Source: a virus
Virus record (IMG/VR): IMGVR_UViG_3300050132_000197
Coordinates: 1-49,733 of that record
Direction: 5' to 3' (one strand)
Length of the DNA stretch: 49,733 nucleotides
Part shown: piece by piece, positions 9,398 to 49,733 of the stretch
Numbering within the stretch: the stretch's first letter is position 1
Layout: every line of letters begins with the position of its first letter
The notes under the pieces: model-generated
The model's input: only the letters and a program-made list of their open reading frames with translations
Told to the model about the DNA's origin: nothing
Databases searched by the model: none
Made by a program: the position numbers and the translations under genes

Positions 9398-9544
9398 ATG
9401 GACGAACGAGACTTTGACGATATGGAAACAGAGGACACTAGGGTGTTTGACGGACGCGGACGCGTGACGTGCGGGAGGTGCGGCGGAACCGGTCTGTTCA
9501 ACCGCAAAGATTGCCCGGTGTGCGAAGGTAACGGATACGAATAA
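9398..9544 (+). CDS. DnaJ-type zinc-finger mini-protein
   Basis: 48 residues from ATG 9398 with GGGTAAGGAGGGGAG upstream. After an acidic leader it has two CxxCxGxG repeats, CGRCGGTG and CPVCEGNG, the pattern of the DnaJ Cys-rich domain. Only one zinc site's worth of repeats is present, so it is a minimal zinc finger. Its role is unknown; it may be a partner for the neighbouring DNA-processing proteins. Confidence 0.8.
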   Translation: MDERDFDDMETEDTRVFDGRGRVTCGRCGGTGLFNRKDCPVCEGNGYE

Positions 9545-13254: not shown

Positions 13255-13288
13255 GCAATTATTGCGTACACTGTAATTATTGCGTACA
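13255..13288. promoter_or_regulatory. Operator-like direct repeat AATTATTGCGTACA x2
   Basis: Copies at 13257-13270 and 13275-13288, 18 bp apart. The first forms the perfect dyad GCAATTATTGC (13255-13265). The reverse complement, TGTACGCAATAATT, recurs at 33501-33514 and, with one change, at 46948-46961, each time just after a -10 box. Here it lies between divergent genes, so one regulator could control both the terminase side and the minus-strand island. Confidence 0.65.
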
Positions 13289-17417: not shown

Positions 17418-19571
17418 ATGGCGGGACCGGAACAAGAACTACTCAGGGGTTGGACGGACAAAGCCCGGGATGCACACTCTACTTCAACCACGTACTTCGA
17501 TAGCAATATACGAAGGACGGTAGAGGCGAACCTCCGCCAGTTCCAGGGGAAGCACCCGACGGGCAGCAAGTACATGGCGGACTCCTATAAGAACCGATCC
17601 AAGCTGTTCCGACCCAAGACGAGGGCGGTCCTTCGCAAGGATGAGGCCGTGTGTGCCGGTGCCTACTTCGCCTCAGAGGATGTGGTTTGCATCCGACCGC
17701 AGAACGATGACGATCTGTTCCAACAAACCGCCGCCGACGTGAACCAGGCCCTTCTGCAGTACCGTCTGACCAAGCCTGCCCCTCATGGGGTTCCCTGGTT
17801 CCTCACCCTCCTGGGCGCCTACCAGGAAAGCATGAGTGTCGGCGTGGTCGTTTCTAAGCAGGATTGGCAGTTCGACAAGCTTCAGAACCTTGACCGCCCC
17901 CGTATCACGCTCAAACCGGTCGAGAACATCCGGATTGACCCGGCCTCGGATTGGACAGACCCGATCAATTCTTCCCCCTACGTGATTGACATGGTGCCGA
18001 TGTATATCGGTGATATCAAGGCGCGAATGCAGGCTGATTCCGACGGGCAACCACGCTGGTTCCAACTCGCTGACAGTGAGATCCAGTCGGCCATCAAGAA
18101 CAGCTCAGACACGATCAGGTTGACCAGGGAGGGCAGAACGGACAGCAAAGACGCCTCTAATGCTCTCACCGATTACACGATTGGTTGGGTCCATGAGAAC
18201 ATCATGAAGGTGAATGGGCAGGATTATGTGTTCTACACCCTCGGGACCCAATTCATTCTGTCGGAGCCGCGCCCCTTGGCAGAGGTTTATTTTCACGGAG
18301 TTCGCCCGTTTGTGATGGGCTTTTGCATCATCGAGCCGCACAAAATCTACCCTTCTTCGAAAGTGGAACTGGTCAAGGACACTCAGCGCGAGCTCAACGA
18401 GATAGTCAACGAGCGGCGCGACAACGTGAAACGCATGCTTGACCCTCGCTGGAAGGCCATGCGCAACAAACAGGTGGACGTGAAGAGCCTGACGCGCAAC
18501 GTCCCGTCGTCGGTTACCCTGATGAGCGAGCTCACCAACGCCGAGCTTATCAAGACTCCGGATGTAACGGGCGCTTGTTTCTCGGAGCAGGACCGTGTTA
18601 ATGGAGACTTTGACGAGATAGCCGGGAGCTTCTCAAGCTCCAGCATTTCGAGCAACCGGAAACTTGGGGAGACGGTGGGGGGGCTGGATCTCCTCTCGGA
18701 CGATGCCAATGCAGTAGGCGAGTATCAGCTTCGTGCGTTTACCGAGACATGGGTTGAGCCGGTACTTCGTCAGATGCTACTCCTGGAGCGCCATTACGAG
18801 ACGAGCGAGCTGGTTCTATCTCTGGCAGGTGACGCCGCTCAGATATGGGAGAAAGGCCTTACCCTGGACCACATGGATGCCTTGCTCAACGAAGACGTAC
18901 TGTTGACCGTCAACGTGGGGATCGGCAGCACGAACCCTACCAAACAGTTGGACCGGTTCATAACAGCTGCCAAGGCAGCGCAAGAGCTTTTGGGCCCAAA
19001 CAATCCTGTTAAGCTGAGACCCGAAGAGGTTATCAAGGAAATATTCGGCAAGGCTGGCTATAAGGACGGCAAGCGGTTCTATGACCTTGGACCTCAGACG
19101 CCTGATCCAATGATAGCACTCCAGCAACAGGCTTTGACGGCGAGGATCGCACTGGACACTGCGACGGCTGCCCTCAAGAAGGCGAATGTGACGCAGCTGA
19201 ATGTAACTTCTATCTACGCGGGCGTGCAGGCCGCACAGGTCATTGCTTCGGTACCGGGAATTGCACCTATAGCCGATCAGCTCTTACTATCAGGCGGCTT
19301 TGTCGATGCGGACGCCGCGCCTATCATCGCCACTCCGCCCGGCCAAGCAATTCAGCCGGCGCCCGGCATAGGGGAACAATCGGTGCTACCAGCACCAGGC
19401 ACGCCAGCACCAGGGAGCCCGTCGCCAGGTCAACCAGCGTCCGGTTTGCCGCTGGTGGCACCTGAAGCCGAGCACAACACTGATCCGATGCACCCGGGCC
19501 TTCCTGAGAGTCCTGACGCGGGAGTTGACCATGGGATAGAGACGCAGCGCAACGATGGGGTGCGTAAATGA
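17418..19571 (+). CDS. Portal protein
   Basis: 717 residues with AGGGGGTAGGG before the ATG. The N-terminal and middle parts fit podovirus portal proteins: YRLTKPAPHGVPWFLTLLGAYQESMSVGVVVSKQDW, IRIDPASDWTDPINSSPYVIDMVPMYIGDIKARMQ, then a KDTQRELNEIVNERRDNVKRMLDPRWKAMRNKQVDV helix and a long helical C-terminal part with a Pro-rich tail (APGTPAPGSPSPGQPAS). The portal forms the dodecameric DNA channel at one capsid vertex and is the terminase docking site. The last four bases overlap the next small gene. Confidence 0.9.
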   Translation: MAGPEQELLRGWTDKARDAHSTSTTYFDSNIRRTVEANLRQFQGKHPTGSKYMADSYKNRSKLFRPKTRAVLRKDEAVCAGAYFASEDVVCIRPQNDDDLFQQTAADVNQALLQYRLTKPAPHGVPWFLTLLGAYQESMSVGVVVSKQDWQFDKLQNLDRPRITLKPVENIRIDPASDWTDPINSSPYVIDMVPMYIGDIKARMQADSDGQPRWFQLADSEIQSAIKNSSDTIRLTREGRTDSKDASNALTDYTIGWVHENIMKVNGQDYVFYTLGTQFILSEPRPLAEVYFHGVRPFVMGFCIIEPHKIYPSSKVELVKDTQRELNEIVNERRDNVKRMLDPRWKAMRNKQVDVKSLTRNVPSSVTLMSELTNAELIKTPDVTGACFSEQDRVNGDFDEIAGSFSSSSISSNRKLGETVGGLDLLSDDANAVGEYQLRAFTETWVEPVLRQMLLLERHYETSELVLSLAGDAAQIWEKGLTLDHMDALLNEDVLLTVNVGIGSTNPTKQLDRFITAAKAAQELLGPNNPVKLRPEEVIKEIFGKAGYKDGKRFYDLGPQTPDPMIALQQQALTARIALDTATAALKKANVTQLNVTSIYAGVQAAQVIASVPGIAPIADQLLLSGGFVDADAAPIIATPPGQAIQPAPGIGEQSVLPAPGTPAPGSPSPGQPASGLPLVAPEAEHNTDPMHPGLPESPDAGVDHGIETQRNDGVRK

Positions 19572-19720
19572 CGCCGGCCGCCAACTGGAAAGAAGAATTG
19601 CGGAACACGATGGTAGCCCTGGGGCTCATTGCGAAAGGTGAAAATCTGACAGGGGCAACGTCGATCAATTGGAACAACGGAAAGATCAGCGATATGGTTA
19701 AACCAGTTCGTTTTAAATGA
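19568..19720 (+). CDS. Small hypothetical protein
   Basis: 50 residues from ATG 19568, overlapping the portal stop (ATGA). MTPAANWKEELRNTMVALGLIAKGENLTGATSINWNNGKISDMVKPVRFK predicts one helix and a short strand. No family. It ends four bases before the -35 box of the next promoter. Confidence 0.7.
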   Translation: MTPAANWKEELRNTMVALGLIAKGENLTGATSINWNNGKISDMVKPVRFK

Positions 19721-19724
19721 TTTA

Positions 19725-19752
19725 TTGACAACGCCCGCGTAACGGTTATAAA
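19725..19752 (+). promoter_or_regulatory. Strong sigma70-like promoter before the capsid block
   Basis: TTGACA (19725-19730) and TATAAA (19747-19752) are separated by 16 bp, close to consensus. The predicted start is near 19759. It is directly followed by the short structured RNA and terminator described next, and then the scaffold/capsid genes. Confidence 0.8.
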
Positions 19753-19758
19753 TGGGCA

Positions 19759-19849
19759 TTAATTGAATATAAGCGGTTAATTTCATCCCTTCGGGGTTAC
19801 TGGAACCCGCACTGTCAGCCAAGTAAAACGGCGATAGTGCGGGTTTTTT
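19759..19849 (+). ncRNA. Short leader RNA with UUCG hairpin and terminator (copy 1)
   Basis: The transcript would read GCGGTTA (19773-19779), 6 bases, TCCCTTCGGGG (19786-19796), 8 bases, ACCCGC (19805-19810), then an intrinsic terminator. These three blocks also occur with identical spacing at 46962-46999. GCGG can pair with CCGC (19807-19810), which competes with the terminator's 5' arm, so the element could be a small RNA or a switch controlling readthrough into the capsid genes. The biological role is inferred. Confidence 0.6.
19804..19849 (+). terminator. Intrinsic terminator
   Basis: A perfect 10-bp stem AACCCGCACT (19804-19813) with AGTGCGGGTT (19836-19845) has a 22-base loop and is followed by a run of six T (19844-19849). 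It lies 52 bases after the -10 box of a strong promoter and just before the capsid operon. Confidence 0.85.
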
Positions 19850-19866: not shown

Positions 19867-20148
19867 GTGGCAGAGCGCGAAGAATTGACCCGTGATATCG
19901 GTATCGGCCTTGACGTCGAGGCGTTCCTTACCACGGCAGCAGGCCGGCGCTTGCTGGAGCGGTTCGAGGAAGCAGCCGAGCTGGCAATCAACGGACTGAT
20001 CGATGCCGACTCCGAGGACCCGAAGGAGATCAGGCGGCTCCAAAACACTATCAAGCGATCCAGGGGGTTCAAGGAAGGCCTACTTGAGATGATCCAGGTC
20101 GGTGAAAACGCAGAAACACAACTCAGCAGCCCGGGAGAAGAGGGCTAA
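19867..20148 (+). CDS. Small hypothetical protein ahead of the scaffold
   Basis: 93 residues from GTG 19867, with AAGGGGGC upstream. Helical and acidic (VEAFLTTAAGRRLLERFEEAAELAINGLIDADSEDPKEIRRLQNTIKRSRGFKEGLLEMI). It is in the usual place of small capsid-assembly factors. No family is recognised. Confidence 0.75.
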   Translation: MAEREELTRDIGIGLDVEAFLTTAAGRRLLERFEEAAELAINGLIDADSEDPKEIRRLQNTIKRSRGFKEGLLEMIQVGENAETQLSSPGEEG

Positions 20149-34860: not shown

Positions 34861-37800
34861 ATGCCGAATAACCTTTCAAATGATGGCATGACCGATGCCC
34901 AAGCGCTCAGCAGCATCGAGAACTTCCAGGCGCCCGCCCCTGCTGCCGCCGCCCCCGCTCCGATAAGTGGGGGTAATATCATCGAAGGCGCCAAGCTTCT
35001 TGGCAGATCGGCCATTGCTATCCCCCAGGCAGTTTCCCAGGCGGCCGCGGGCGCCGTCGGTAGCCTCACCGATGCGGCAGGGTTCCAGGCCCAGGACAAC
35101 CCGGTTTACCGGGGGCTCGACGCTTTCAATAAGGATGCTGAGTTTTCCCGACATGACCCGAGCTCTCCCCTGGCAGCTGATTCAGCCTGGCGCGCAGCTA
35201 ACCCCATCAAGGCCACTATTGGTGATGCAGCTGAAAGCATAGCGCCTATCGCAGCGATTACGGCCGCAACCGGCGGGGCGGCAGCCGTGGCCTTGCCTGT
35301 TACCTACGGGCTCAAGAAACAGGAAGAGGGCACTCAGCTGGGGATGCAAAACAACCCGGGCATGACCGAACCGGAAGCCCGATTACGGGCGACACCCGGC
35401 GGTGTGGTTGAAGGCGGCATGTTCGCAGCCATGGGTGCGGCCGGCGGCCTAGGAAAAGCGGGACTTGCCAAGGCGGCCCCTGGGTTCTTTGGCGACACCG
35501 TGGCTGCCGACGTGCCAGGCATAGTCAACTATGGAGCAAAGAAAGCATTCCGGGACGCTCTGTCCACAACCCTCACTGATACCCCTTTCATGGTGGGCCA
35601 AGGGCTCGCCGTGGGTGCTACCGACAAGGCTACCGGGACCACTCCGGATGCGCACCCCATCGACGACGCCTTTTCCGGCCAAAACCTTCTGACCAGCGCA
35701 GGGACGGCGGCCATGTTCGGCCTTCTTCATGCTCACGGTGCGTCACGGCAGCTGGCTGGCGTGCGTGACGCCCTCTCTGATCCCGAAGCGCCGGTTGAAG
35801 CCCGAGAAAAAGCGGCGCAGTACGTCTACGACAATCTGAAAGCGGCCGATCCTGCCGCAGCCGACAATTGGGGCCTGAACGCCAAGATCGCTATCCATGG
35901 CCTGCCCGATGGTCCTTACTGGAACGCCGTTGAACCTCACCCGATCCCCTTGGACAACCGGTATCTGAACGACCCTTTTTACCTTTGGGGCAAGGAAGAT
36001 CCGCAGCAACAGGCAATAGGTTACACCCCTGGGCCTGACTCCGGTGCTCAACCCGAGCCCGGCGCGCCCCCCGCAACTCCCCCGGGCGCTCCGGTTTACG
36101 ATGCTGAGTGGAGCGACGCTACACCGCAACCGCTCTTGACGGACGGAAGCGGCGGGGCGCCCGAACCTGCCAATCCCCTTAGTCCCATAGCAGCCGCCGA
36201 ACCGACTGCGCCGGCCGCCCCCGCTGGCCCACTAGGGAAAGCCCTGATGTCAGGTGGAATCGTTGCGCCAGAGGTGCATAATCTGGACTCGGCGCCGGCA
36301 GCCTCAGCCCTTGTCGCCTCCCCTACCACTGCCGTCCCCGGCCCGCTCTCGCGTGCGATCGCTCCGATTAGCAGCCTTGCAGACATGGTAAAGGCCTCCA
36401 GGGCAGGAAGAACATCAACGATGCCCGGTGATGCCGGGCCACAAGGAGAATTGAATGACCTGCCCCAAGTGCGGCAAGAAGCAGGCGCGACGCAAGAAGT
36501 GCCATCAATGCGGAACGGAGATGTTGCGCCAATATCGGCGGTTGATGAGGCGGCCCATGAATCAGCGTTCTCTCCTCTCAATGGCTTAGCAGCTCCAACT
36601 CAGGGCCAGATAGAGGCAGGGAACTACCAGAAGGGCCACATTAATGTCCAGGGTCTTAATATCTCTATCGAGAACCCCGCAGGGTCCACAAGATCCGGCA
36701 CCGATCAGGACGGGAAGCCCTGGTCAGTCGATATGGCGCACCACTATGGCTACATCAAAGGGACCGTCGGGGTTGATAAGGATCACATCGATACCTTTGT
36801 TAAGGAGGGGACTGATCATCAGGCGGCCAACGATAAGGTTTTTGTCGTTGATCAGATAGACCATAAGACCGGTCAGATGGACGAGCATAAGGTGATGATT
36901 GGCTTTGATACCGTCGCGGCTGCCAGGGAAGGATACCTCGCCAATTACGATAAGACCGGTGAACAGCGTATCGGTGCGCTCACTGAAACAACAATGCCCG
37001 AGTTCAAGACCTGGCTGAAAGAAGGCGACACGAAGTCGGCTTTTGGTGAGGTAGTAGAGCGGAAAACCGAGGGGCATCCAGCGCCGGCCGAGGTTCCCGA
37101 AACGGCTGTTGCTGAAACGGAAGCGCCCGCAGTGGAGACGAAAGCAGGCGAAACGGGAACGGTATCGCCTAAAACGGATGCAGCTATCCGCGGTGTGCTG
37201 CAGACCCTTCAGAACCCGAAATCAGGTAGTGCGGCTAAGATTGCCAACCTCAGCACTAAATACGGCAAGGAAACCGTCAACGATCTAGTGCGATCGGGGC
37301 ACATCTCCTTCCCGGGTAAGGGCGTGGCTGAGATCACCAAGAAGGGCCAGCAGTACCTGGTGGACCATCCCGAGGCGCTGAACCCAATCGCCCTGAAAAA
37401 GCTGGAAGCACTCAGTAAAAAGCGGAAGCGCAACGCCAAAGAAGAGGCGATGTACCAGACGTTGAACGATCGTCACGAAAAGACGAAGGACCAGGTTGCA
37501 GCAGTGGCCGAAAACGCAGTACCGGCTACCGACAGACGTCAAGACCCAACCCTCCGCAAAAAAATAGCTGATATGTCACCGGCTGAGGTCCAAAAAGAGC
37601 TTCTCACCAACCACGTTACTGGCCTACCCAATAAACGCGCTTACGATGAGGCTCCTCTCTCCGGTTACCACGCAGCTATTGATGCCGATTCTCTCAAGTG
37701 GATCAACGATAATATGGGGCACGAGAACGGAGACGAGCTCCTGAAAGCTGTCGGTCAGGCTATTGCCGATGAAACGGACAAAGGTTACCATCTGAGTGGA

Positions 37801-40800
37801 GATGAATTTGCTATAATTGGAAACGACGAGGCTCATGTTAATGGGATCATGGCAAAGGTGTCTGAGCGCCTTAAAGACGCCGAGCTCGTTTATACAGCAC
37901 CTGATGGCACCGTATACCGTAAGAAGGGACTGGAGGTAACCCATGGTACAGGAACGACATTCGCAGAGGCAGACACAGCCCTCCGCGCCAGAAAAATCGA
38001 ACGAGAAAAAGCAGGGGAGCGCGCAGCGCGCGGTGACCAACCTAAAGGCGTGGCTATCGAGACTCCCGAAGGGAGGAAAGCTGACGGTGAAGTTGCCGAA
38101 AAAGTAGAAACATCCCCCGAAAAAAGAACCGGCACCGAGACTAGGACGGACACTCTCGACGTTGCCAGGAAGGATGACACAGCTAGCCCCCCCACCGGTT
38201 CTTCTTCTGATTCCATTATCGCGTCTGTCGACACCGGTGTCAAGGCCAAGCCAACCCCCGAGGAAGAACTGTATGCCCTCGCCAAGGCCTCGTACACCCA
38301 CGTTTCCCCGTCTCCCAGCCGGGCAGCGCAGGCCTACCGTGACGGCATGGTGTCGGCGACTGCCGATCTACAATCGGAACTCAGCAAGCTCGCCACTACC
38401 GATGAACAAAAAGCCATTGCCATCACACAGGTGGATCTATTTAAGCGCGGGTACCTCGAGAAGTCCCGCCCCATCTTAAACGCCATCAGCAACCAGGTCT
38501 CCAAGATGGTGGCTGGTGGGTCCAAGTTCAACGAGAACCACGGCAAGCGGAACGAGCGGGCACAGGGTGCCGAACAGAAGGCTAATGACGAGTTCCAAAA
38601 GTGGAATGCACAGGTAAGGGGGGGCGCCAAGGATGCGGTACTCGACGCCAGAACGCCCGAGCAGGTTGCGGCCGATGATCAGGCAGGCAAGGACACCATA
38701 GCCAAGAAGATAGAGCGCAGGCGTGCTGTAGAAGTGTCGGCTGTCAAAAAGTTCATGGCGCTCAAGCCCGGCGACACGATAGACGTTGGTGGCAATGCAC
38801 CGGTGGAGATTGCTAAGAAAAACCGCAAATCCGTCGAAACCGTTGGTGGGGCAAAGTACAGTATCAATGACCTTTACCAGATCGACGGCAAGCGCATCGA
38901 CGAGATCATGGCCGGCCTTGACGAAGAGAGATCCCGAGCGGTTGAAGCATTTAAGGGCGCTGAAAAGCTGGAAGGTGAGATATCCGGCTACGTAGGTGAA
39001 AAGGTAGCCAAAGAGATAGCTGACAAAATTGATGGCGAGTTGGCCGACCAAGACGGTCCGGCGCGCAGTGAGGTCGTTTCCTCTACTGACAGGGGAGCTG
39101 TATTTTACGCGGAGAAGCAGAAAGAGCTTGCTAAGGCGCTCTCCGATATCAAAGACCAGGCCGATCAACCCGACAGCCTGATAGCCCGCCAGATGGAGCA
39201 ACGTAGGGCCGCAAGTAACCAGAAGGCAATGGACGCTATGGACGCGGCGGACCGCCAAGAAGCTGAGGACCTGGCTGAAACCCTTGAGAAAAAGGTCATT
39301 ACGCCTGAACAGCAAAGTCTTATTGATGAGGCTGTTGATAGCGGCGACAAAGAGGCCATCCTGGAAGCTATGTCTGAGGTTGCAGCCACAGCCAAGGATA
39401 AATTTAAGTTTGTGCCGGGCGGTGAGGCCGTCCATGCCGATTCTCCTTCACTGAACGAGATCGCCACCATTGCAGACCACGCCAAGGTCTCCAAAGCCAT
39501 CCGTAGTGGCGATATCACCCCAGACCAGTTCAAGAGCTCCTTCGCCTCCATGGTTTCGAACGAGGATGCAATCAAGGCCGAGCTCAACGGCATGTCCAAA
39601 GCGGAGGCGCTGAAGCTTGCCGGCAGCATGACGGCGGAACGATACAAGAACGAGAAGAAGGCCGATGCTATCCGGGCCGTCTACGACTCGATGCTTGCCG
39701 AGTTTGCCCTGAATCGCGGTATCACCTATCAGGGGTTTGGCAAGGACGCCTACACGAATGCCCTGCAGAAGATGGTCGACGGCACGACAGCGGGTGATAT
39801 CTCCGGCTACGCCAAGGAGGTTGAGGAAGCCCGCAGCGCCACCATGAAGCGCAGGGAAGCCGGTATGAAGGCCCTTTCCAACCCCGAGACGCTGGAGGAA
39901 TTCCAGACCTTCATCAAGTACAAGGGGGAGGGCAAGCTTACCAAGGACCAGCGTGCCGCCTATGACGAAGCGGTGGCGAGCAGCAACAAAGATCAGAAGG
40001 CGGCCGACCTCGAAAAGAAAGCCACCGTGGGCCAAGTGAAGCTGGGTGACGAAACCACATTCACGATGGTTGAAGGGAAACATGGAAAAACCGGGGAGCC
40101 GCTATCCATCGTCCAGCTGGGCGGCCCGAAGCTCGAGGGCGATGCTTTCAAGGAGTTGGCGCAGAAGGCGCGGCAGCTGGGCGGCAACTACGTCAACAAC
40201 ATGCAGGCCCGTATCTGGAAAACAACCGGGGGCTTCCAGTTCAAAGACCAGGAGAGTGCGGAAAGGTTCATGCAGCTCCGCGACGGCTCCGTGTCTGTTG
40301 CCGGCAAGGTCGAGGCGAAGCAGGAAGAAAAGAAGAGCGCCGCGGCGGATCGTCTCCTTGAGCTAGCTGATAGCATGGAGGAGAAGGGCAACGCTGTCTT
40401 GAACACCGACCGGCTGACGAACACCGCGAAGAGGGCGCGTGAGGCATCCGGTACCGAAGCGGCAGCAGCCGGCCAGGTTGCCATGGCGAAGACAATCAGG
40501 AACCTCGCCCAGGCGATTGCCAGCGGGGACGCAACGCACCTTGACGGAATAAGGGCGGCTACCCATGTCCAAACCTTATCCGACCTCCTTAACAGGGCAA
40601 AACAGGCGAAGCTGGATATTGACTATCCTTCCTACGGCGAGCGGGAGCAGCATAAGAACCGCGCCGCGACTACTGATGACGTTGCACTCGTCAAGTATCC
40701 TTACCCGACTCCCCACATAGATCACCTCCGAACCATTGCCAGCTCCCTGAAAGACATTAAGGGCAGGAAGATGGACGCGGCATGGCTCAACAAGCGGATC

Positions 40801-43800
40801 AACGAACAGGGTGCCGACAGCGTGGTTCCTTTCACGGACGCGCAGGACGTGGAGCGTTTGGCCGGTATCCTCGCCCGGGTCAAGGAATCCGTACCGGGCA
40901 ATTCGTTACGCTCTGCAATGGAGAATACGGCTGAACGCATGGTGAATTACAACCGCTTGCAGAAGATGGGAATTACCGATCTACCTTCCCTCCGCGCAGC
41001 GCTCCGTGAGTTCATACAGTACAAAGAGAACCGCAGTGCTCCTGATAAAGCGAAGGAGCTTGAGCGGGCGCTCGTCGGCAACAAGGGCGTAGGGCTCGAT
41101 TTCTTCCCAACTCCTCCCAAGGTAGCCGCAGACATGGTAAAACGCGCCGATATCAAGCCGGGAATGAAAGTGCTGGAGCCTGGAGGCGGTACCGGGAACA
41201 TCGCCGACAAGATGAAGGATGCAGGCGCCGATGTAGACGTGGCCGAGATATCCCAGTCGCTTCGGGATGTGCTGGAAGCCAAGGAGCACAACCTGGTCGC
41301 TCGAGACTTCATGGATTACGAACCGGGCCCGATCTACGACAGAGTTTTGATGAATCCGCCGTTCAGCGCCGATATCGACCACGTTCAGCACGCCTTTGAC
41401 CTTCTTAAACCTGGCGGCAAGTTGGTTGCCATCGTAGGTGAAGGGAGTTTTGGCGGCCAGAAGAAGCATACCGAGTTCCAGCAGTGGCTAGACGATAAGG
41501 GGGCGAGCGTCGAGAAATTGCCCTCTGGAACCTTTACCGACCGGACGCAGCTCAAGACGACCGGAGCCGGGGCACGGATGGTGGAAATGGAGAAAGGCGG
41601 CGACGTGGCCGAGCAGCACCCCATCGAGACGCTGACTGAAACCGGACTCCTGCGCGAGTACGGCGACCGCTGGCAGTACAAGCCGCACCCAGAGGCACGG
41701 TGGCTCACCTCTAACAGCAAAGATGGCGCTATCGAGCAGGCGAGCAATGCCTACGACTCGCTTCCTGAAAATGAGCGCCTTACCACCACACAGCGCGGTG
41801 AGCAGGCCGACGCCAAACGGGATGCTGAACTGGAGAAGCGGTACGGTAAAGAGAGTACTCCTGACCTTGAGAAGCGCCTTGCGGGGCTGGACGGAGAGAT
41901 TGCCTCGCTCCAGAAGGCAGGATCCAGGGAGTTCAACGGCAACGGTGGCCGGCGCACGTCGGCGGCAGTATCGAACGAGGGAGCGCGGGCGGCAGGGCAG
42001 GAAAAGATGGATCTTGCGCGGTATCTGGGTACCAGGGCCGAGACGGAGACAGCCCGTACAGCCTACGAAGACGTCAGGATGCCCGACACCCCAGCCGAGA
42101 TAGTCACGGAAGCTGTCAAGACCGCCAAGGGCGAAGGCACTGCGCTCAAGGAGCAGAAGAAGTACCTGCTGGCGAATATCGAAGATGCGGTTAAGGATGC
42201 GTCGAGCCATAGCAGAGGCACGGAACTGGAAGCGGCCAAAAAAGGCATTGAAGCGGACCGAAAGAAAACGGAGGATCACACTGCCTACAAATTGCGTGTG
42301 CAGACGGCAGAGGCAGCCTATGCCAATGTGACAGATGCCCTGGCAAAAGATTACGGTTACGTCACTATCCACGTTCCCGATGATGGCACGTTCAAGGTCC
42401 TGAACACCAAGGAGTCGTTGCAGCAGTTCAAGTCCAACGTCGAACGGTTGTTCCCCACCGATAGCAAGGGCGGCGCCAAAGGATACGGCAACGCGCCGAA
42501 GCCTACCAACGTGAAGGCTGAAGGCTTAGAAGGCGCCACTACCTTCCAGACGACGAGCGGAGTATGGCATACGACGCCTCAAATGCTCGTCAAGGGTGAA
42601 CCGCAGATAAAGCCCAAGGTCACCAAGGACGGCAGCGATTATGGTTCATGTTTCCTGAAAGAGACCCCCGAAGGCAATCAGAATTCTGTCGATAGGGTCC
42701 GCCCTCCCATGAGGAGCACTACCCCTGTGGACAAGGTTGAATTCGTAGCAGGGGCAAAGGATGGCGCAACTGACAACGGAGATTTCACGTCGATCTCCGA
42801 TAAGCCGATTAAGGTAAGTAAGTCGAACGGGGAAGAGGCTTTTGCGCGGCTTACGGCAATAGGTAAACCGGACGTCTACTTGGGTCAAAATCATTATCTC
42901 TATGCCAAGGAGCATTACCCTGATGCTGAGGTAAGGATATCTGATAGCCTCGGCCCTGTGGCTTTCGTTCAAGACGGCCAAGTCGTCGCGGCTGTCATGC
43001 CAATGAACCCGGAAAGGATGGGGTTGCAGCCTGACGGTATTCGATATTCCAAAGTCGTCAAGATTATACAAGGGGATTCTGGATTGGGCGACGCTTCCGT
43101 AACCCCTGCCAAATCTTTTCCAGATATCAGATCCATCCTAGACGACCAAAACGCCAAACAAGTGAGCGTAAAAGGGGGAAACAGTGACGTTCTTAGAAGA
43201 CTTGCTGGGGTGTTCGGAAAGAGAATCATCTTTTATGCGCCCGAGGGAAGTGAGGGTGAAGTGGCAGCGGCCGACCATGGTCGACCTGAAGACGGGCAAG
43301 ACTTATCACCGATGCAACACAACGGGTTCGTGGTTGGAGGACGCCCCAGTACCATCTTCCTGAACGCGGAAGCCAACAATCATCTTCTTTTCATCCTAGG
43401 GCATGAACTACAGCATCTATTGCACAATGAAGACCCAGACTTATGGCGAGAAATGGGCCGAGATATAAATCCCTTGGTCAGGGGATGGGTTGCTGCCCGG
43501 GAGGAGTATTCTAAAGTCTACAAAACAGATGATAGCCTCTATCTATCTCAGGAATTCCTAGGGGATGTAGTGGGTGAGCATTTTCTGGATGGCAAATTTT
43601 GGGGCGACCTTGCAGACCAGGACAAAAACCTTTTCCAGAAGGTAGCAAATAAGGCTATTTCGCTCATAAACAAGGCTCTCCGACTCGTAGTTGATTCCCC
43701 AGTGGCTACCACCTATATCAGTGACCTTACTCAATCAAGGGCGGTTATCAGCCGGGTGATGGGTGAATACGCGCAAAACGCAAGGATTGGAGCATACGCA

Positions 43801-46800
43801 GATGCTTACGACAAAGACTACACTGAAAAGAGGTTTGCCCTTTCGCCGACGTCTACCGGTAACGGAATGCTTGGCCTCCAACGGATTTACGAGAAGCTTG
43901 CTGGGACAAAGACCGCTCAGGAAGCCGCGAGCTATCTTGAGGTTGGTGCTCGTAAGGTATACGAAGGCGCCAAGAGCTACTCAGATTTCACCAAGGGAAT
44001 GAAGGATTGGCTCAAGGACCTTTGGGAAAGATTCAAGGGAGGAATGCTGAAACTCTACCAATTTGCTAAGAGCAAACTTCAGGAGGAGCGCGGGTCATTT
44101 TCCTGGAAAGGGGTAGACGGCGGAGACGAGGCTAGCGCGGACAACACGGCATGGGACGCGATGCTTAAAAAGGCACGCGATACGCAGGCCAAGGTTGACG
44201 CATTCACTGATAAGTCGAGATTTGCCAAGGATGACGTGAAACCGGCGTTCAAGGCTGCAGCCGACGGGATGAAAACCTCCTATGATGGCCTTCATCGTGC
44301 TGTTCACCCAGCTGGCCGCAGCAAGGAAGCAGCGGAAGCTAGCCGAATTCTGACTGAAGGGATAGGCAAAACGGCGCACTCCAAGGATCAGCTTATCGCA
44401 AAATTAGACGAGGCCGCATCGAAAGAATCTAAAAACGTGACCTTTACCGCCAGAATGCTCGACTTGATGCAAACATCCTCCACCCTAGCAGACAAGGTGG
44501 TATCGAGTATGTCGGAAGCGGATCAGATCGACGCCATAATGAGAGCGCAGCACGGTCAGAGCCAAGCCACCCCCGAGGTACAGCGAATTATGGACGTGCT
44601 CCAGTCGATGCTTGCGGGAAAGGCAGCTGTAGTCCAGGCTCTCGATACTGGGGCGCTTGAGAATTTGATGGAAAATTACTTTCCTCAGATAACCGTACCC
44701 GGCGAAGACACCAGCGAAGACGCCATCAAAAAAATCAACACTGAGTTGTCTAAGCGACCGCTGGAGGGGAGCAAGGGCTTCACTAAGCATCGAGTATTTG
44801 ATGATGTTGAGGCGGTCTATTCCGCAGGGTATAAGTTAGTCACAACAAATCCTATTGACCTTACCTTTTTGAAAATGGACGAAATGGACAAATACATCAA
44901 CGCCCATACCGCGCTCCAGGCTATGGAGAAAAGTGATAGCGAGCTTGCCCACCTCATCCTCCCAGGGGATAAGGTGCCCAAAGGGTACACTGAAATCAAC
45001 GGACCTTACGGTATTGTAACCAAGAAGACCGGCACTGCGTCTGACGAAGAGATAAAAGATGCCTACCAGAAAGTGGCAAAACTGGAGGGTGTGCGGAAAA
45101 GTCTCACACAAAAACTTGCCGACGCCCAAGAGGAGTTCGGCGACTTCAGCCCCGAGCATCAAGAGGCCAGTGACAATCTCGATACGGTGGCCGATATGCT
45201 GAAAAACGCCAAGTCTGAATATGCGCAAGCCACCGGAAAAGTGAATTGGCGTTACGTGGTGCGGGAGGATGTGGCCCAGGTTATCAATAATTATACCAGT
45301 CAAAGCCTCTACAATAACCGGTATGTCGGCAAGATTTATACCGGTTATATGAAAGCTGCCAACCTTCTTAACCGATTTCAGTTAGGAGTGTTCAGTGCCT
45401 TCCATGGCGGGTTCATGACCATGGAAAACATTATCAGTCATGCCTCGATAGGAATGAAGGCTCTTTCCAGGGGCGATTTTGAAACCGCAATGGAGTACCT
45501 TGGGACAGCCCCGTCTGCTGTTTTGGCACCTTGGCGCCTCGGTGACCAGATCATGCAGTCGTGGATGGGCGGGAAAGGTAGCGATGAGATGGCACGCATC
45601 ATTAGCTGGCTTGAGCTGGCGGGCGCTCGCAAATTACTTGATACCCGGTTCCAAAGCAATAGCACTAAAGAGATGTTCCAAGCGTGGGCCAACGGCAACA
45701 AGGTCGGTGCAGTCCTGCGCGGGATACCTTCAATAGTGGAACAGTCGGCCCGTCCCATCACTGAGTGGTTCGTACCTCGCTGCAAGTTTGCCGCGTTCGG
45801 AGAAATGGCAAACGATTGGTTTTCGCGTAACCCCGACGCTACCCACGCAGATCTGGCCGAGGCCATGCAAAAGATATGGAACAGGGTGGACTCTAGGATG
45901 GGGCAGGTGAACTATGACCGCCTCTTCTCTCATAACGTCATGAAAAACTTGGTGCAGGCCCTGATTCGTGCTCCAGGATGGACAGGCGGAACGATTTTGG
46001 AGGTCGGTGGGGGTTTAAAGGACCTAGCCGGCTACCTCAAGAACGCCTCCCTTGGGAAACCGGGGGAGCTCTCCGACAGGGGGGCTTATGTCCTGTCTTT
46101 GGCCCTCACCCACGCAGTGGTAAATGGTATTCTCACGACCCTTTTCACTGGCCAGCCGCCGCAGGACTTGAAGGACCTTCTAGCCTTCAGAACTGGCAAT
46201 TTGGACGAGCACGGGAATCCAGAGCGGTTCATGCTGCCAGACTACGCGAAGGACATGTATGCCTACATAGAAGCGCCAGGCTCAACGCTGGCCCACAAAA
46301 CTCATCCGGCATTGTCGCTTATCGGGGACGCGATCCACAATAAGACCTACTATGGCCAAGAAATAAGGCATCCAGGAGACAGTCTTTTCGCTCAACTGGC
46401 ACAGATGGCTGGTTTCGTAGCCGACGCTTTTGTCCCATTCTGGATGAAGGGCGCTCAAAAGGAGATCGAACGCGGAGGTAGCCCTTTAACGATAGGCCTT
46501 CCTCAGATCGGCGTCATGCCTGCACCGGCCGACATGAACAAAACCAAGGCTGAGAAGATGGCGCGTGATTTAATGGTTGATCGGATGCCTCAAGGATCCA
46601 AGACTCAGGAAGAGTCTGATCGCAGCCAGCTGGTAGGGAAATTGACCAATGAGATCCGCAAAAACTCTCCTGACGCCCGTGCGGATATCCAAAAGGCGGT
46701 CTATGACGGCAAGATCACCCGCATTCAGGCGCATAATGTTCTGATGAACTCGCACTTCACTCCACTGCAGGTTGCATTTAAGCACCTGGGGTACGAAGAG

Positions 46801-46914
46801 GCGCAAAAGGTCATGGAGGTGGCAACGCCCGACGAGAAGCAAAAGTTACAAGGGCTACTCATTGCGAAGCAGCGCGGTTTCAACAAAACGCACCCGAAGC
46901 AAAACGCAGAATAG
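34861..46914 (+). CDS. Giant polyvalent protein: pyrophosphatase-like, GGDEF, N6-adenine methylase and zincin domains
   Basis: 4017 residues. In order: hydrophobic Ala/Gly segments (about 120-210), a Pro/Ala-rich linker (380-500), an inorganic pyrophosphatase-like polyvalent domain (about 582-735, with GNYQKGHI, WSVDMAHHYGYIKGT and DKDHIDTF), a winged-helix-like stretch (about 770-850), a GGDEF domain (about 905-1050; IDADSLKWIND at 940-950, SGDEF at 979-983), long helical regions, a DNA adenine methylase (DFFPTP near 2079, VLEPGGGTG at 2104-2112, NPPF at 2165-2168), charged coiled coils, a zincin metallopeptidase (HELQH at 2848-2852) and a helical C-terminus. Polyvalent proteins of this kind are known in phages and may be ejected with DNA to counter host defence. 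It follows directly after the promoter-driven 440-residue gene. No interruption of the frame is seen; activity of each domain is unproven. Confidence 0.85.
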   Translation: MPNNLSNDGMTDAQALSSIENFQAPAPAAAAPAPISGGNIIEGAKLLGRSAIAIPQAVSQAAAGAVGSLTDAAGFQAQDNPVYRGLDAFNKDAEFSRHDPSSPLAADSAWRAANPIKATIGDAAESIAPIAAITAATGGAAAVALPVTYGLKKQEEGTQLGMQNNPGMTEPEARLRATPGGVVEGGMFAAMGAAGGLGKAGLAKAAPGFFGDTVAADVPGIVNYGAKKAFRDALSTTLTDTPFMVGQGLAVGATDKATGTTPDAHPIDDAFSGQNLLTSAGTAAMFGLLHAHGASRQLAGVRDALSDPEAPVEAREKAAQYVYDNLKAADPAAADNWGLNAKIAIHGLPDGPYWNAVEPHPIPLDNRYLNDPFYLWGKEDPQQQAIGYTPGPDSGAQPEPGAPPATPPGAPVYDAEWSDATPQPLLTDGSGGAPEPANPLSPIAAAEPTAPAAPAGPLGKALMSGGIVAPEVHNLDSAPAASALVASPTTAVPGPLSRAIAPISSLADMVKASRAGRTSTMPGDAGPQGELNDLPQVRQEAGATQEVPSMRNGDVAPISAVDEAAHESAFSPLNGLAAPTQGQIEAGNYQKGHINVQGLNISIENPAGSTRSGTDQDGKPWSVDMAHHYGYIKGTVGVDKDHIDTFVKEGTDHQAANDKVFVVDQIDHKTGQMDEHKVMIGFDTVAAAREGYLANYDKTGEQRIGALTETTMPEFKTWLKEGDTKSAFGEVVERKTEGHPAPAEVPETAVAETEAPAVETKAGETGTVSPKTDAAIRGVLQTLQNPKSGSAAKIANLSTKYGKETVNDLVRSGHISFPGKGVAEITKKGQQYLVDHPEALNPIALKKLEALSKKRKRNAKEEAMYQTLNDRHEKTKDQVAAVAENAVPATDRRQDPTLRKKIADMSPAEVQKELLTNHVTGLPNKRAYDEAPLSGYHAAIDADSLKWINDNMGHENGDELLKAVGQAIADETDKGYHLSGDEFAIIGNDEAHVNGIMAKVSERLKDAELVYTAPDGTVYRKKGLEVTHGTGTTFAEADTALRARKIEREKAGERAARGDQPKGVAIETPEGRKADGEVAEKVETSPEKRTGTETRTDTLDVARKDDTASPPTGSSSDSIIASVDTGVKAKPTPEEELYALAKASYTHVSPSPSRAAQAYRDGMVSATADLQSELSKLATTDEQKAIAITQVDLFKRGYLEKSRPILNAISNQVSKMVAGGSKFNENHGKRNERAQGAEQKANDEFQKWNAQVRGGAKDAVLDARTPEQVAADDQAGKDTIAKKIERRRAVEVSAVKKFMALKPGDTIDVGGNAPVEIAKKNRKSVETVGGAKYSINDLYQIDGKRIDEIMAGLDEERSRAVEAFKGAEKLEGEISGYVGEKVAKEIADKIDGELADQDGPARSEVVSSTDRGAVFYAEKQKELAKALSDIKDQADQPDSLIARQMEQRRAASNQKAMDAMDAADRQEAEDLAETLEKKVITPEQQSLIDEAVDSGDKEAILEAMSEVAATAKDKFKFVPGGEAVHADSPSLNEIATIADHAKVSKAIRSGDITPDQFKSSFASMVSNEDAIKAELNGMSKAEALKLAGSMTAERYKNEKKADAIRAVYDSMLAEFALNRGITYQGFGKDAYTNALQKMVDGTTAGDISGYAKEVEEARSATMKRREAGMKALSNPETLEEFQTFIKYKGEGKLTKDQRAAYDEAVASSNKDQKAADLEKKATVGQVKLGDETTFTMVEGKHGKTGEPLSIVQLGGPKLEGDAFKELAQKARQLGGNYVNNMQARIWKTTGGFQFKDQESAERFMQLRDGSVSVAGKVEAKQEEKKSAAADRLLELADSMEEKGNAVLNTDRLTNTAKRAREASGTEAAAAGQVAMAKTIRNLAQAIASGDATHLDGIRAATHVQTLSDLLNRAKQAKLDIDYPSYGEREQHKNRAATTDDVALVKYPYPTPHIDHLRTIASSLKDIKGRKMDAAWLNKRINEQGADSVVPFTDAQDVERLAGILARVKESVPGNSLRSAMENTAERMVNYNRLQKMGITDLPSLRAALREFIQYKENRSAPDKAKELERALVGNKGVGLDFFPTPPKVAADMVKRADIKPGMKVLEPGGGTGNIADKMKDAGADVDVAEISQSLRDVLEAKEHNLVARDFMDYEPGPIYDRVLMNPPFSADIDHVQHAFDLLKPGGKLVAIVGEGSFGGQKKHTEFQQWLDDKGASVEKLPSGTFTDRTQLKTTGAGARMVEMEKGGDVAEQHPIETLTETGLLREYGDRWQYKPHPEARWLTSNSKDGAIEQASNAYDSLPENERLTTTQRGEQADAKRDAELEKRYGKESTPDLEKRLAGLDGEIASLQKAGSREFNGNGGRRTSAAVSNEGARAAGQEKMDLARYLGTRAETETARTAYEDVRMPDTPAEIVTEAVKTAKGEGTALKEQKKYLLANIEDAVKDASSHSRGTELEAAKKGIEADRKKTEDHTAYKLRVQTAEAAYANVTDALAKDYGYVTIHVPDDGTFKVLNTKESLQQFKSNVERLFPTDSKGGAKGYGNAPKPTNVKAEGLEGATTFQTTSGVWHTTPQMLVKGEPQIKPKVTKDGSDYGSCFLKETPEGNQNSVDRVRPPMRSTTPVDKVEFVAGAKDGATDNGDFTSISDKPIKVSKSNGEEAFARLTAIGKPDVYLGQNHYLYAKEHYPDAEVRISDSLGPVAFVQDGQVVAAVMPMNPERMGLQPDGIRYSKVVKIIQGDSGLGDASVTPAKSFPDIRSILDDQNAKQVSVKGGNSDVLRRLAGVFGKRIIFYAPEGSEGEVAAADHGRPEDGQDLSPMQHNGFVVGGRPSTIFLNAEANNHLLFILGHELQHLLHNEDPDLWREMGRDINPLVRGWVAAREEYSKVYKTDDSLYLSQEFLGDVVGEHFLDGKFWGDLADQDKNLFQKVANKAISLINKALRLVVDSPVATTYISDLTQSRAVISRVMGEYAQNARIGAYADAYDKDYTEKRFALSPTSTGNGMLGLQRIYEKLAGTKTAQEAASYLEVGARKVYEGAKSYSDFTKGMKDWLKDLWERFKGGMLKLYQFAKSKLQEERGSFSWKGVDGGDEASADNTAWDAMLKKARDTQAKVDAFTDKSRFAKDDVKPAFKAAADGMKTSYDGLHRAVHPAGRSKEAAEASRILTEGIGKTAHSKDQLIAKLDEAASKESKNVTFTARMLDLMQTSSTLADKVVSSMSEADQIDAIMRAQHGQSQATPEVQRIMDVLQSMLAGKAAVVQALDTGALENLMENYFPQITVPGEDTSEDAIKKINTELSKRPLEGSKGFTKHRVFDDVEAVYSAGYKLVTTNPIDLTFLKMDEMDKYINAHTALQAMEKSDSELAHLILPGDKVPKGYTEINGPYGIVTKKTGTASDEEIKDAYQKVAKLEGVRKSLTQKLADAQEEFGDFSPEHQEASDNLDTVADMLKNAKSEYAQATGKVNWRYVVREDVAQVINNYTSQSLYNNRYVGKIYTGYMKAANLLNRFQLGVFSAFHGGFMTMENIISHASIGMKALSRGDFETAMEYLGTAPSAVLAPWRLGDQIMQSWMGGKGSDEMARIISWLELAGARKLLDTRFQSNSTKEMFQAWANGNKVGAVLRGIPSIVEQSARPITEWFVPRCKFAAFGEMANDWFSRNPDATHADLAEAMQKIWNRVDSRMGQVNYDRLFSHNVMKNLVQALIRAPGWTGGTILEVGGGLKDLAGYLKNASLGKPGELSDRGAYVLSLALTHAVVNGILTTLFTGQPPQDLKDLLAFRTGNLDEHGNPERFMLPDYAKDMYAYIEAPGSTLAHKTHPALSLIGDAIHNKTYYGQEIRHPGDSLFAQLAQMAGFVADAFVPFWMKGAQKEIERGGSPLTIGLPQIGVMPAPADMNKTKAEKMARDLMVDRMPQGSKTQEESDRSQLVGKLTNEIRKNSPDARADIQKAVYDGKITRIQAHNVLMNSHFTPLQVAFKHLGYEEAQKVMEVATPDEKQKLQGLLIAKQRGFNKTHPKQNAE

Positions 46915-46917
46915 CAC

Positions 46918-46963
46918 TTGCATTAGAATGTGTTTTTACCTATAAACTGTATGCAATAATTGC
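46918..46963 (+). promoter_or_regulatory. Promoter and dyad operator before the end-of-genome block
   Basis: TTGCAT (46918-46923) and TATAAA (46941-46946) are separated by 17 bp. TGTATGCAATAATT (46948-46961) follows, containing the dyad GCAATAATTGC (46953-46963) at the predicted start site. The same motif occurs at 13257-13288 and 33501-33514. The downstream RNA cassette resembles that at 19759. Confidence 0.75.
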
Positions 46964-47035
46964 GGTTAGTCAAATCCCTTCGGGGCTAAAGAGACCCGCG
47001 CCATTTTCTGAGATATTCAGAGGGCGCGGGTTTTT
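46953..47035 (+). ncRNA. Short leader RNA with UUCG hairpin and terminator (copy 2)
   Basis: GCGGTTA (46962-46968), 6 bases, TCCCTTCGGGG (46975-46985), 8 bases, ACCCGC (46994-46999): the same three blocks and spacings as in the copy at 19773-19810, 29 of 38 positions identical without gaps. TTAG (46966-46969) can also pair with CTAA (46986-46989), so the UUCG hairpin is extended. GCGG can pair with CCGC (46996-46999) and so compete with the terminator. Small RNA or conditional leader; no known family recognised. Confidence 0.6.
46994..47035 (+). terminator. Intrinsic terminator
   Basis: ACCCGCGCC (46994-47002) pairs with GGCGCGGGT (47023-47031) over 9 bp; the 20-base loop contains a second small stem, TCTGA/TCAGA. 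Five T's (47031-47035) follow. Confidence 0.85.
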
Positions 47036-47077
47036 CTCGTTTAAATATCAATGTGATGACATCTACCGAGGCGAATA

Positions 47078-47443
47078 ATGGAAAGCGGCGATATCGAAGG
47101 GGAAGGCATGGGACGGAGGGGTTACGATCCTGGCTGCTTAATAGATCAGAAAAAACTCAGCGACATGCAGACCGTCGTGGACAAGAACGCCGGCAGGTAC
47201 GCGGCGTTAATGTGGTTTCTAGGAGTAGTCGGTCTTTTCGTCTGCGGCTGCATGTCCTTGATCCTGGCTAAGACCTCATCGATTCAGGAGTCGATCTCTG
47301 GCACCAACGTCATTATGGAGCGGCACTCCAACCTGATCGCCAGCATATCGATGCGGGTTGACAAGATCGAGGAGCGCAACCGGTACATCGACCAGAGTGT
47401 TATTGGCAGGTTTGAGAACAAGAGCGGCGCGCCAGCAAATTGA
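47078..47443 (+). CDS. Membrane protein, holin-like or membrane anchor
   Basis: 121 residues from ATG 47078, preceded by GAGGCG. Residues about 42-66 form one transmembrane helix (AALMWFLGVVGLFVCGCMSLIL), preceded by a charged N-terminus and followed by a periplasm- or cytoplasm-facing coiled coil (SIQESISGTNVIMERHSNLIASISMRVDKIEERN). Single-pass proteins like this next to fibre genes are often holins or lysis accessory factors; no endolysin is visible here, so the role is open. Confidence 0.7.
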   Translation: MESGDIEGEGMGRRGYDPGCLIDQKKLSDMQTVVDKNAGRYAALMWFLGVVGLFVCGCMSLILAKTSSIQESISGTNVIMERHSNLIASISMRVDKIEERNRYIDQSVIGRFENKSGAPAN

Positions 47444-47451
47444 GGTAGCAG

Positions 47452-48606
47452 ATGGCAACCAGAACAATAAGCAATAGCGGCGGCAATTACTCGGCAACCG
47501 GCACATGGGTTGAGGGGGTTGTGCCGACAGCCTCGGACGCTGTGGTAGCCACTGGCACCTCTGGGAACTTAACCATTGACACAATTGGTAACGTAGCCGC
47601 GTCAGTGGATTTTACCAATTACCCTGTTACTTCTACTGTCACTTTTGCAGCAACAAAGATTTTGACTGTATACGGAGGTTACAAACAAATTGCTGGCATG
47701 AATATTACTGGAACAGGGTCGCTGGTAATGGCTCTTGCGTCCACAATGACATCAGCAGGAGTAACTTTCCCTGGTTCTTTAATCTTCGCAGTGAATGCTA
47801 CTTTTACATTGGCCGATAATTGGACTCTAACTGGTTTATTGACCTACAATACCAATACGGTTGTTAATGGCAATCAAATTACTTGCAACGGAGGGATAAC
47901 CAATAATGGGACGCCTAGTGGAACAACTAATATTATTTTAGCTGGTGGAACATGGTCAGGAGGTAGTACAAATGAGCTTTATAATAATTTAACTATAGCA
48001 GGAAATGTAACAGTTTCGGGCGCTGTTTATTATAGGAATGGAGTACTAACATATTTATCGGGAACAGTGACGTGGTCAAGTGCTGTATTGAGAATAACTG
48101 CAAATTGCACGCTAAACACTAGTGGGATAACCTGGCCGAACGTAACCACAGCACTGGGTGCGACATGGACACTGCAAAGCGACTTAAATTGCACGATTTT
48201 AAATTTAGCCCACGCCATAATAACAGCTGGAAACTTTAATATTAATTGCGCCAGCTATTTTGCAATAGCTGCTGGTGCTTCCTTAACTGTAAAAGCAGGA
48301 CAAACCTTAAATATTTCAACTACGATGTTTTCTGGCACGCCAAGTTCGGCAGGTACTTACGTAAACTGCCCTCTAAAGTCAGGCACAGCCTCAAGCCCAA
48401 TGTATCTAAATTATCAAGGACCGCAAGCAAATTTAGCGCTTATAGGCTGCGCTATTACGGACGTAGACGCTTCCAGTTCTGCTATTCCGTTATTCCAGTA
48501 TCAAGGAAGCACTCTACTAAGAACAGTTAATATCACGAACATAGTACTTCCCCCGGCAGGCGGCTTAATGGGAAGCAGCAGTTTGTTAGGGGGGCTAGAT
48601 GGCTAA
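47452..48606 (+). CDS. Beta-helical tail fibre/spike-like protein
   Basis: 384 residues with GAGGTAG before the ATG. The opening MATRTISNSGGNYSATGTWVEGVVPTASDAVV resembles the first repeat of fibre/adhesin proteins, and the rest is a long run of Thr/Asn/Gly-rich short beta strands (NITGTGSLVMALAST, TNELYNNLTIAGNVTVSG) typical of right-handed beta helices used in receptor binding. The DNA from about 47640 to 48540 is markedly more AT-rich than its neighbours, suggesting acquisition from elsewhere. The next gene overlaps its end. Confidence 0.8.
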   Translation: MATRTISNSGGNYSATGTWVEGVVPTASDAVVATGTSGNLTIDTIGNVAASVDFTNYPVTSTVTFAATKILTVYGGYKQIAGMNITGTGSLVMALASTMTSAGVTFPGSLIFAVNATFTLADNWTLTGLLTYNTNTVVNGNQITCNGGITNNGTPSGTTNIILAGGTWSGGSTNELYNNLTIAGNVTVSGAVYYRNGVLTYLSGTVTWSSAVLRITANCTLNTSGITWPNVTTALGATWTLQSDLNCTILNLAHAIITAGNFNINCASYFAIAAGASLTVKAGQTLNISTTMFSGTPSSAGTYVNCPLKSGTASSPMYLNYQGPQANLALIGCAITDVDASSSAIPLFQYQGSTLLRTVNITNIVLPPAGGLMGSSSLLGGLDG

Positions 48607-49733
48607 GTTATCAATACTCGGCGGCGCAACTAGCGTCACAGATTACATTTTCGTTCAGGACTCGGCAAGCACTGTCGGCGCTGGTAAAACGGGGCTCGTC
48701 TACAATACTTCGGGGTTATCAGCCTACTATGTCAGGCCAGGAGCAGCGTCGCAAGCCGTGTCGCTGGTGACCCAGACCGTAACCGGGGCGTATTCATCGG
48801 GTGGATTCGTGGAAGTGGATGCTGTAAACCTACCGGGCGTTTATCGTATCGACTACCCCAACGCCATGCTTGCAGCAGGTGTACGGTCGGCGGTAATGAT
48901 GCTGAAAGGGACCGGGATTGCACCGGTAAAATTGGAAATAGAGCTGACCGGATGGGATAACCAGGTGTCGAAAATAGCCGCCACTCTTGCGGCTTCGGAT
49001 GTGACAGGGAATCTCCCTACCAACGTCATCCAGGTCAACGGCACCGCTCAGACGGCCCGAGATCTGGGGGCGAGCGTACTGCTTGCAGGTGATTTTTCCG
49101 CGACGATGAAAACAAGTCTCAACGCGTCAACGGTAGCAACTGTGACCAACCTCACCAATGCACCGACGAACGGCGACCTTACAGCCACAATGAAGGCCAG
49201 TATAGCAACGTCCGTTAGTGGTGTGACTGCTGCTGTCACTGCCATTACGACCAATACGGCAAGGGGGCGTACTGTTATCCCAGACCAGATGGAGCTGCCT
49301 GCTTCCGGTTCTACATCTTATGAAATCAACCTCAACATTTACACGCTGCAGGGGGCAATGGATGCCCCCGACTCGGCACCTACCATTCACGCCAGGACTG
49401 TGGGCGGGGCTTCGATGGATGCGTCACTTAGGTCCACCGCCATGACGCTTATATCTGCAGGCGTCTACAATGTGACCTATTCTGTAGCATCAACAGATAT
49501 TCAACAGCAGATCCTTTTCACCTTCGCCTGGGCTGTTGGAGGGGTGCCATTCACTCTCACGGGCACGACTGATGTTGTCAACGTGTATGCTGTGGCCTTT
49601 ACATCTACCGACCGAACTGCACTGAACGCTATTCCAACTACCCCTCTTTTAACTAGTGATACTCGGTTAAATCATTTGAATGCAGATATTTCGGCTATTC
49701 CAATTGCTCCACTTCTGGCAAGCGACACCCGGC
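48599..49733 (+). CDS. Tail fibre protein, 3' truncated
   Basis: At least 378 residues from ATG 48599, with AGGGGGG upstream; the frame is still open at the window end. MAKLSILGGATSVTDYIFVQDSASTVGAGKTGLVYNTSGLSAYYVRPG, then SSGGFVEVDAVNLPGVYRIDYPNAMLAAGVRSAVMMLKGTGIAPVKLEIELTG matches the conserved N-terminal module of phage tail-fibre/baseplate-upper proteins (GGAT, FVQDSSS, GLxYN, YRxDxPNA). Later sections are Ala/Thr-rich with repeats of the LLxSDTRLNHLNADISAIP type. It overlaps the preceding gene's stop. Confidence 0.85.
   Translation, partial: MAKLSILGGATSVTDYIFVQDSASTVGAGKTGLVYNTSGLSAYYVRPGAASQAVSLVTQTVTGAYSSGGFVEVDAVNLPGVYRIDYPNAMLAAGVRSAVMMLKGTGIAPVKLEIELTGWDNQVSKIAATLAASDVTGNLPTNVIQVNGTAQTARDLGASVLLAGDFSATMKTSLNASTVATVTNLTNAPTNGDLTATMKASIATSVSGVTAAVTAITTNTARGRTVIPDQMELPASGSTSYEINLNIYTLQGAMDAPDSAPTIHARTVGGASMDASLRSTAMTLISAGVYNVTYSVASTDIQQQILFTFAWAVGGVPFTLTGTTDVVNVYAVAFTSTDRTALNAIPTTPLLTSDTRLNHLNADISAIPIAPLLASDTR

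Follow-up and report, generated by a model that had tools for sequence, protein, structure and literature searches.

The late transcription unit of phage lambda, the Q-dependent pR'-tR' leader, consists of a promoter, a short leader and a terminator, followed by the late genes. The ribonucleic antiterminators (RATs) of the BglG/LicT/SacY operons are short leader hairpins with internal loops, the 3' strand of which overlaps the 5' arm of a terminator, such that the two folds are exclusive and the terminator is the default (PMC3369936). ANTAR RNAs are defined by two hairpins whose loops carry A1 and G4 (PMC3369936). The put elements of phage HK022, about 70 nt long with two stem-loops, act on RNA polymerase without a protein in early genes and do not overlap a terminator; together with lambda nut, they illustrate how antitermination complexes can be loaded at paired RNA sites close to a promoter (PMC9378689).

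The cassette described here, with copies A and B in one phage genome and copies C and D in a relative (G005), has the order of lambda pR'-tR', i.e. promoter, leader, terminator and late genes, but unlike the Q-dependent late leader its conservation lies in the leader RNA and not in the promoter. Like HK022 putL and putR, it comprises two related promoter-proximal cis RNA elements in two phage operons, whereas its core is shorter than put (38-40 nt), has one apical hairpin and overlaps the terminator. It also differs from ANTAR RNAs, since the core has a single small hairpin, the loop of which is UUCG or GGAAU. As in the RATs of the BglG/LicT type, the core fold overlaps and excludes the 5' arm of the terminator in all four copies, although the core sequence is different and the cassettes precede phage late blocks. 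As far as it was tested, the cassette falls outside the BglG/LicT family: a CAT domain (PF03123) was not found among the phage-encoded proteins of the window or G005 records, while control genomes were positive, and the Rfam family bglG-cis-reg gave no match for A and B and only 15.8 bits for D, on its terminator part, against a cut-off of 80. The reading that we favour, and hold with about even confidence, is that the cassette is a conditional terminator of late operons, resembling a ribonucleic antiterminator, that would be off by default and opened by a factor.

Anatomy of the two cassettes in the window

The window, that is, the whole stretch of DNA analysed, is a virus record of 49,733 bases, whose gene content includes an exonuclease VIII-like protein, a Holliday junction resolvase, an O-like replication protein, terminase, portal and major head protein. 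Units of the form ATTGCC...GGCAAT are repeated within the O-like replication gene (7659-7887), comparable to a lambda-type origin; the direct repeat AATTATTGCGTACA, with an 18-nt period, lies immediately 5' of the terminase small subunit gene (13258-13288) and is possibly an operator or promoter; and coding regions at the left end carry tandem repeats (923-1217 and 1-254, with periods of 12 nt and 66 nt). One 4017-aa protein is encoded at 34861-46914; over its first 3000 residues it matches large proteins from phages of Vibrio, Aeromonas and Pseudomonas, some of which carry a methyltransferase annotation; searches of IMG/VR found no relatives of its C-terminus, nor of the 121-aa protein behind cassette B. 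The features of the two cassettes are as follows.

19568..19720, + strand: p50, a 50-aa ORF directly 5' of cassette A
19725..19752, + strand: cassette A promoter, -35 TTGACA (19725-19730), 16-nt spacer, -10 TATAAA (19747-19752)
19773..19810, + strand: cassette A core, 38 nt, located by its sequence and by comparison with B
19803..19849, + strand: cassette A intrinsic terminator, 5' arm AACCCGC overlapping the 3' end of the core
19867..20148, + strand: 93-aa gene, first of the capsid block, directly behind cassette A
46918..46946, + strand: cassette B promoter, -35 TTGCAT (46918-46923), 17-nt spacer, -10 TATAAA (46941-46946)
46962..46999, + strand: cassette B core, 38 nt, GCGGTTA / ATCCCTTCGGGG / ACCCGC
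46992..47036, + strand: cassette B intrinsic terminator, 5' arm GACCCGC overlapping the 3' end of the core
47078..47443, + strand: ORF for a 121-aa protein, apparent membrane segment, no clear family; first gene behind cassette B

Both copies are thus flanked, as the initial annotation had it, by a sigma70-like promoter and a strong intrinsic terminator. Against the window background (150-nt windows), promoter A scores above the 99th percentile and promoter B at about the 99th percentile, and in both cassettes the core follows the promoter at a distance of 15-20 nt. The terminator hairpins, at about -27 and -26 kcal/mol in the two cassettes, have GCGGGTTTTT and TCGTTT in common. Cassette A is located, together with p50, between the portal gene and the 93-aa gene, the counterpart of which in relatives usually overlaps or closely trails the portal gene. 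Since only 17 nt separate this strong terminator from the next gene, the capsid block must be reached via read-through, either from the cassette promoter or from further upstream. Cassette B lies directly 3' of the 4017-aa gene and had been placed at the start of the fibre end, which is only roughly correct: the 121-aa membrane-segment protein comes first and the fibre-like gene second, and the equivalent copy in G005 precedes lysis genes. The fibre-like genes themselves (47452-49733) share 98.5% DNA identity with L104:6001-8285, a record that is otherwise dissimilar, and this identity, with the match beginning exactly at the start codon at 47452, suggests a recent exchange of the fibre module.

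The two cores were found where they had been annotated and align without gaps at 29 of 38 positions (46962-46999 against 19773-19810), while the next-best 38-mer in the window reaches 22/38 on the + strand and 21/38 on the - strand. The expected number of occurrences of the three-block pattern in shuffled windows is 0.00, and the leader alone, stripped of ACCCGC and the terminator, still scores above all 20,000 paired dinucleotide shuffles. The three blocks stand as described, except that the middle one measures 12 nt (ATCCCTTCGGGG) and not 11. All 25 block positions match between A and B, compared to 4 of the 13 linker positions, which is about the chance level; a plain duplication without constraint does not account for this, and the blocks are not a scattered repeat either. 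Three other readings of the leader were rejected: CsrA binding, because core B has no GGA; a leader-peptide attenuator, because cores A and B contain no start codon; and a sigma-dependent pause of the lambda type, because the -10-like hexamer, good ahead of core B, is poor ahead of core A and hence not conserved.

Two further copies in a co-linear relative

A covariance model built from copies A and B (R1) retrieved a third copy, C, with an E value of 4e-12 in G005, a relative that is co-linear and has a capsid identity of about 70%, and a weak fourth copy, D, in the same phage (E 0.13 in a wide search and 0.012 in a narrow one); D is assigned chiefly by where it stands and how it folds. Copy C is preceded by a 55-aa ORF (p55) and followed by a 226-aa ORF, by its position the terminase small subunit, upstream of the terminase large subunit. 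Copy D lies behind a 4255-aa gene and ahead of a 153-aa protein, which has an apparent membrane segment, and an endolysin. Over the two phages, then, the four cassettes precede the terminase, capsid and lysis/fibre blocks. In C (GCGGTAA) and D (GCGGGTAA) the first block is altered, and promoter scoring revealed no strong promoter immediately 5' of either. The exact spacing of the blocks with diverged linkers, as originally proposed, holds in three of the four copies, with linkers at chance level, and fails in D, where the core is two bases longer.

A model of all four copies (R2), in which A-D score strongly by construction because it was built from them, gave convincing matches over 84 records in the window and G005 only, and none in the other 82. 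Exact and gapped patterns in IMG/VR and GTDB contigs yielded nothing, or chance matches in unrelated or coding DNA (L083, L105, L106, L107), and occurrences of CCCTTCGGGG in L096 and L097 were rejected, their contexts being unrelated. Rfam gave no match at the gathering threshold, with weak noise below it, and BLAST of the cassettes against phages and plasmids returned only short matches of other kinds.

It can be asked whether the cassette is rather an autonomous gene for a trans-acting RNA of about 90 nt, made up of a promoter, a single-stranded seed (GCGGUUA) at the 5' end, a small hairpin and a terminator, the copies being paralogous small-RNA genes between late blocks. The unit from promoter to terminator in the window contains no gene, the terminators have U tracts in the layout of many small RNAs, and A and B have an identical first block of 7 nt. 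This proposal fits copy C less well, with a small ORF upstream and no strong promoter just 5', and the first block is not the same in C and D. The seed-target search gave nothing above chance, the exact complement of the block having one sense-strand match in the window. Moreover, a strong unregulated terminator ahead of the capsid genes would still require read-through. We regard a small-RNA gene as unlikely.

Far less probable in our view is that the core is an RNA anti-CRISPR, i.e. a solitary mimic of a CRISPR repeat, 31-32 nt long (GTWA...hairpin...GRRAC), that has its own promoter and occupies Cas proteins. The cassette resembles the Racr type of solitary repeat unit in that a phage promoter is followed by a short RNA whose hairpin is like that of a repeat (PMC10651486); the length is repeat-like, the hairpin central and the end GAAAC, GAGAC or GGAAC, and viral solitary repeat units are often found just downstream of a promoter (PMC10651486), as the core is. 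Just 5' of copy D, G005 also has a stretch that ends in GTGGATTGAAAC, like the end of a type I-C repeat. However, A and B match no Rfam CRISPR family even at E 10, the conserved GCGG falls outside the repeat-like part, and unlike an RNA anti-CRISPR the cassette has a fold that overlaps a terminator and precedes late blocks. The G005 sequence upstream of copy D (L090:2580-2608, - strand) is a solitary stretch, GTCACCTGGTAACGGGTGTGGATTGAAAC, resembling a type I-C CRISPR repeat; judged from its sequence it may possibly be an RNA anti-CRISPR in its own right, although it scores 17.3 bits against the cut-off of 45 for Rfam CRISPR-DR9.

Core fold and its overlap with the terminator

Folded in isolation, all four cores have as their minimum-energy structure a closing helix of four pairs topped by a small apical hairpin; across the four, the closing pairs form with probabilities of 0.58-0.99. 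The closing helix is GCGG:CCGC in A, B and C and CGGG:CCCG in D, and the apical hairpins are CCC-UUCG-GGG in A and B, CCU-UUCG-AGG in C and ACCC-GGAAU-GGGU in D. A possible inner helix is formed by GUC:GAC in B and C and by GUU:AAC in D, and is imperfect in A. When RNAalifold was run on the four sequences with no structure supplied, it returned the closing helix and the hairpin with two compensatory pairs, and the shared structure outscores all slid versions of itself. Column shuffles equalled the observed covariation in 37 of 500 cases, cores A and B are no more stable than their shuffles, and a four-pair closing helix arises by chance in 1.4-4.4% of shuffled leaders per copy, where A, B and C do not count as independent evidence because they share the same closing helix by descent. 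The support that four sequences give to the structure is thus real but modest. The initial interpretation is borne out in part: selection on an RNA structure is supported by two extra copies in a relative, a fold common to all four, two pairs that changed on both sides and yet remained paired, and the contrast between diverged linkers and block spacing retained in three copies.

What had been overlooked is a second role of the third block, which also serves as the terminator's 5' arm; the element is therefore a candidate switch. In all four copies, the lower 5' arm of the terminator consists of the same nucleotides as the 3' strand of the closing and inner helices, and the core fold and the terminator are thus mutually exclusive. 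As transcripts of A and B grow, the core fold has the lowest energy up to the point at which the 3' arm of the terminator has been made, whereas at equilibrium the terminator is favoured over the core fold by a wide margin. The cassette would accordingly be off by default, and read-through would call for a factor.

Read-through of the late blocks and a candidate factor

Our preferred reading, the conditional terminator, can be envisioned as follows. Transcription from the promoter would yield an RNA that carries the core of about 38 nt, the cassette being the leader of a late-gene transcription unit. By default, the 3' part of the core (AAC or GAC plus CCGC) would become the 5' arm of the strong terminator, and transcription would stop ahead of the structural or lysis genes. 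A trans-acting factor, probably a protein, would hold the alternative core fold, with its GCGG:CCGC helix, short inner helix and small apical hairpin; with this fold held, the lower terminator stem would be blocked and RNA polymerase would continue. Two copies under one factor would allow two late blocks to be switched jointly. Apart from the cassette terminators, no strong intergenic terminator was found on the coding strand of the late region in either phage; in the window, the + strand has just these two strong intrinsic terminators between genes. A point against the switch is that other relatives are without the element.

Alternatively, the cassettes could be plain promoter-terminator boundaries, with late transcription made terminator-resistant by a general system (Q-like or other) that acts from another site; the core would then only mark a place near the promoter for loading or pausing, or be left over from common ancestry. 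In several relatives, ordinary terminators that lack the core occur among the head genes, so that passing terminators may be a general ability of these phages, and the loading sites of HK022 put and lambda nut provide a precedent (PMC9378689). On the other hand, the blocks are fully conserved where the linkers are saturated, the conserved part extends into the terminator stem, the helix is changed in D yet complementary, and no Q-family protein was found in the two phages: PF06530 is absent from both, and PHROG scans named no Q family among the ORFs tested. A general system of this kind appears doubtful as an explanation for the cassette.

In lambdoid phages, Q often sits between the O-like gene and terminase. 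At this position the window encodes a 48-aa protein with a DnaJ-like CxxCxGxG zinc motif (9398-9544), which gave no match to Q.

If a protein is the agent of read-through, p50 and p55 may perhaps be that protein. The two resemble each other over 35 aa at 31% identity (BLASTP E 4e-5 when this one pair was compared), and p50 is directly upstream of cassette A just as p55 is directly upstream of copy C in G005; it is only because they adjoin one cassette in each phage that they are a candidate factor. No family match was found for p50, and matches to microviruses (E 2 for p50 and 0.8 for p55) are weak and were taken as chance. The predicted model of p50, a helix and two strands with a mean pLDDT of 69.5, carries no weight, being a poor model from two sequences only with which fold searches returned nothing significant. 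It is a tentative and rather improbable suggestion, then, that these phages have a previously undescribed form of antitermination, in which a protein of about 50 residues (p50/p55), encoded beside one copy of the cassette, would bind the paired leader RNAs, open the conditional terminators and turn on the late blocks together.

How late gene expression is timed has often not been established for tailed phages without a recognisable Q or N protein. An RNA switch as compact as this one, overlapping its own terminator and repeated at the heads of late blocks, would offer a directly testable case, together with a candidate regulator, and the covariance model is a handle for finding further copies.
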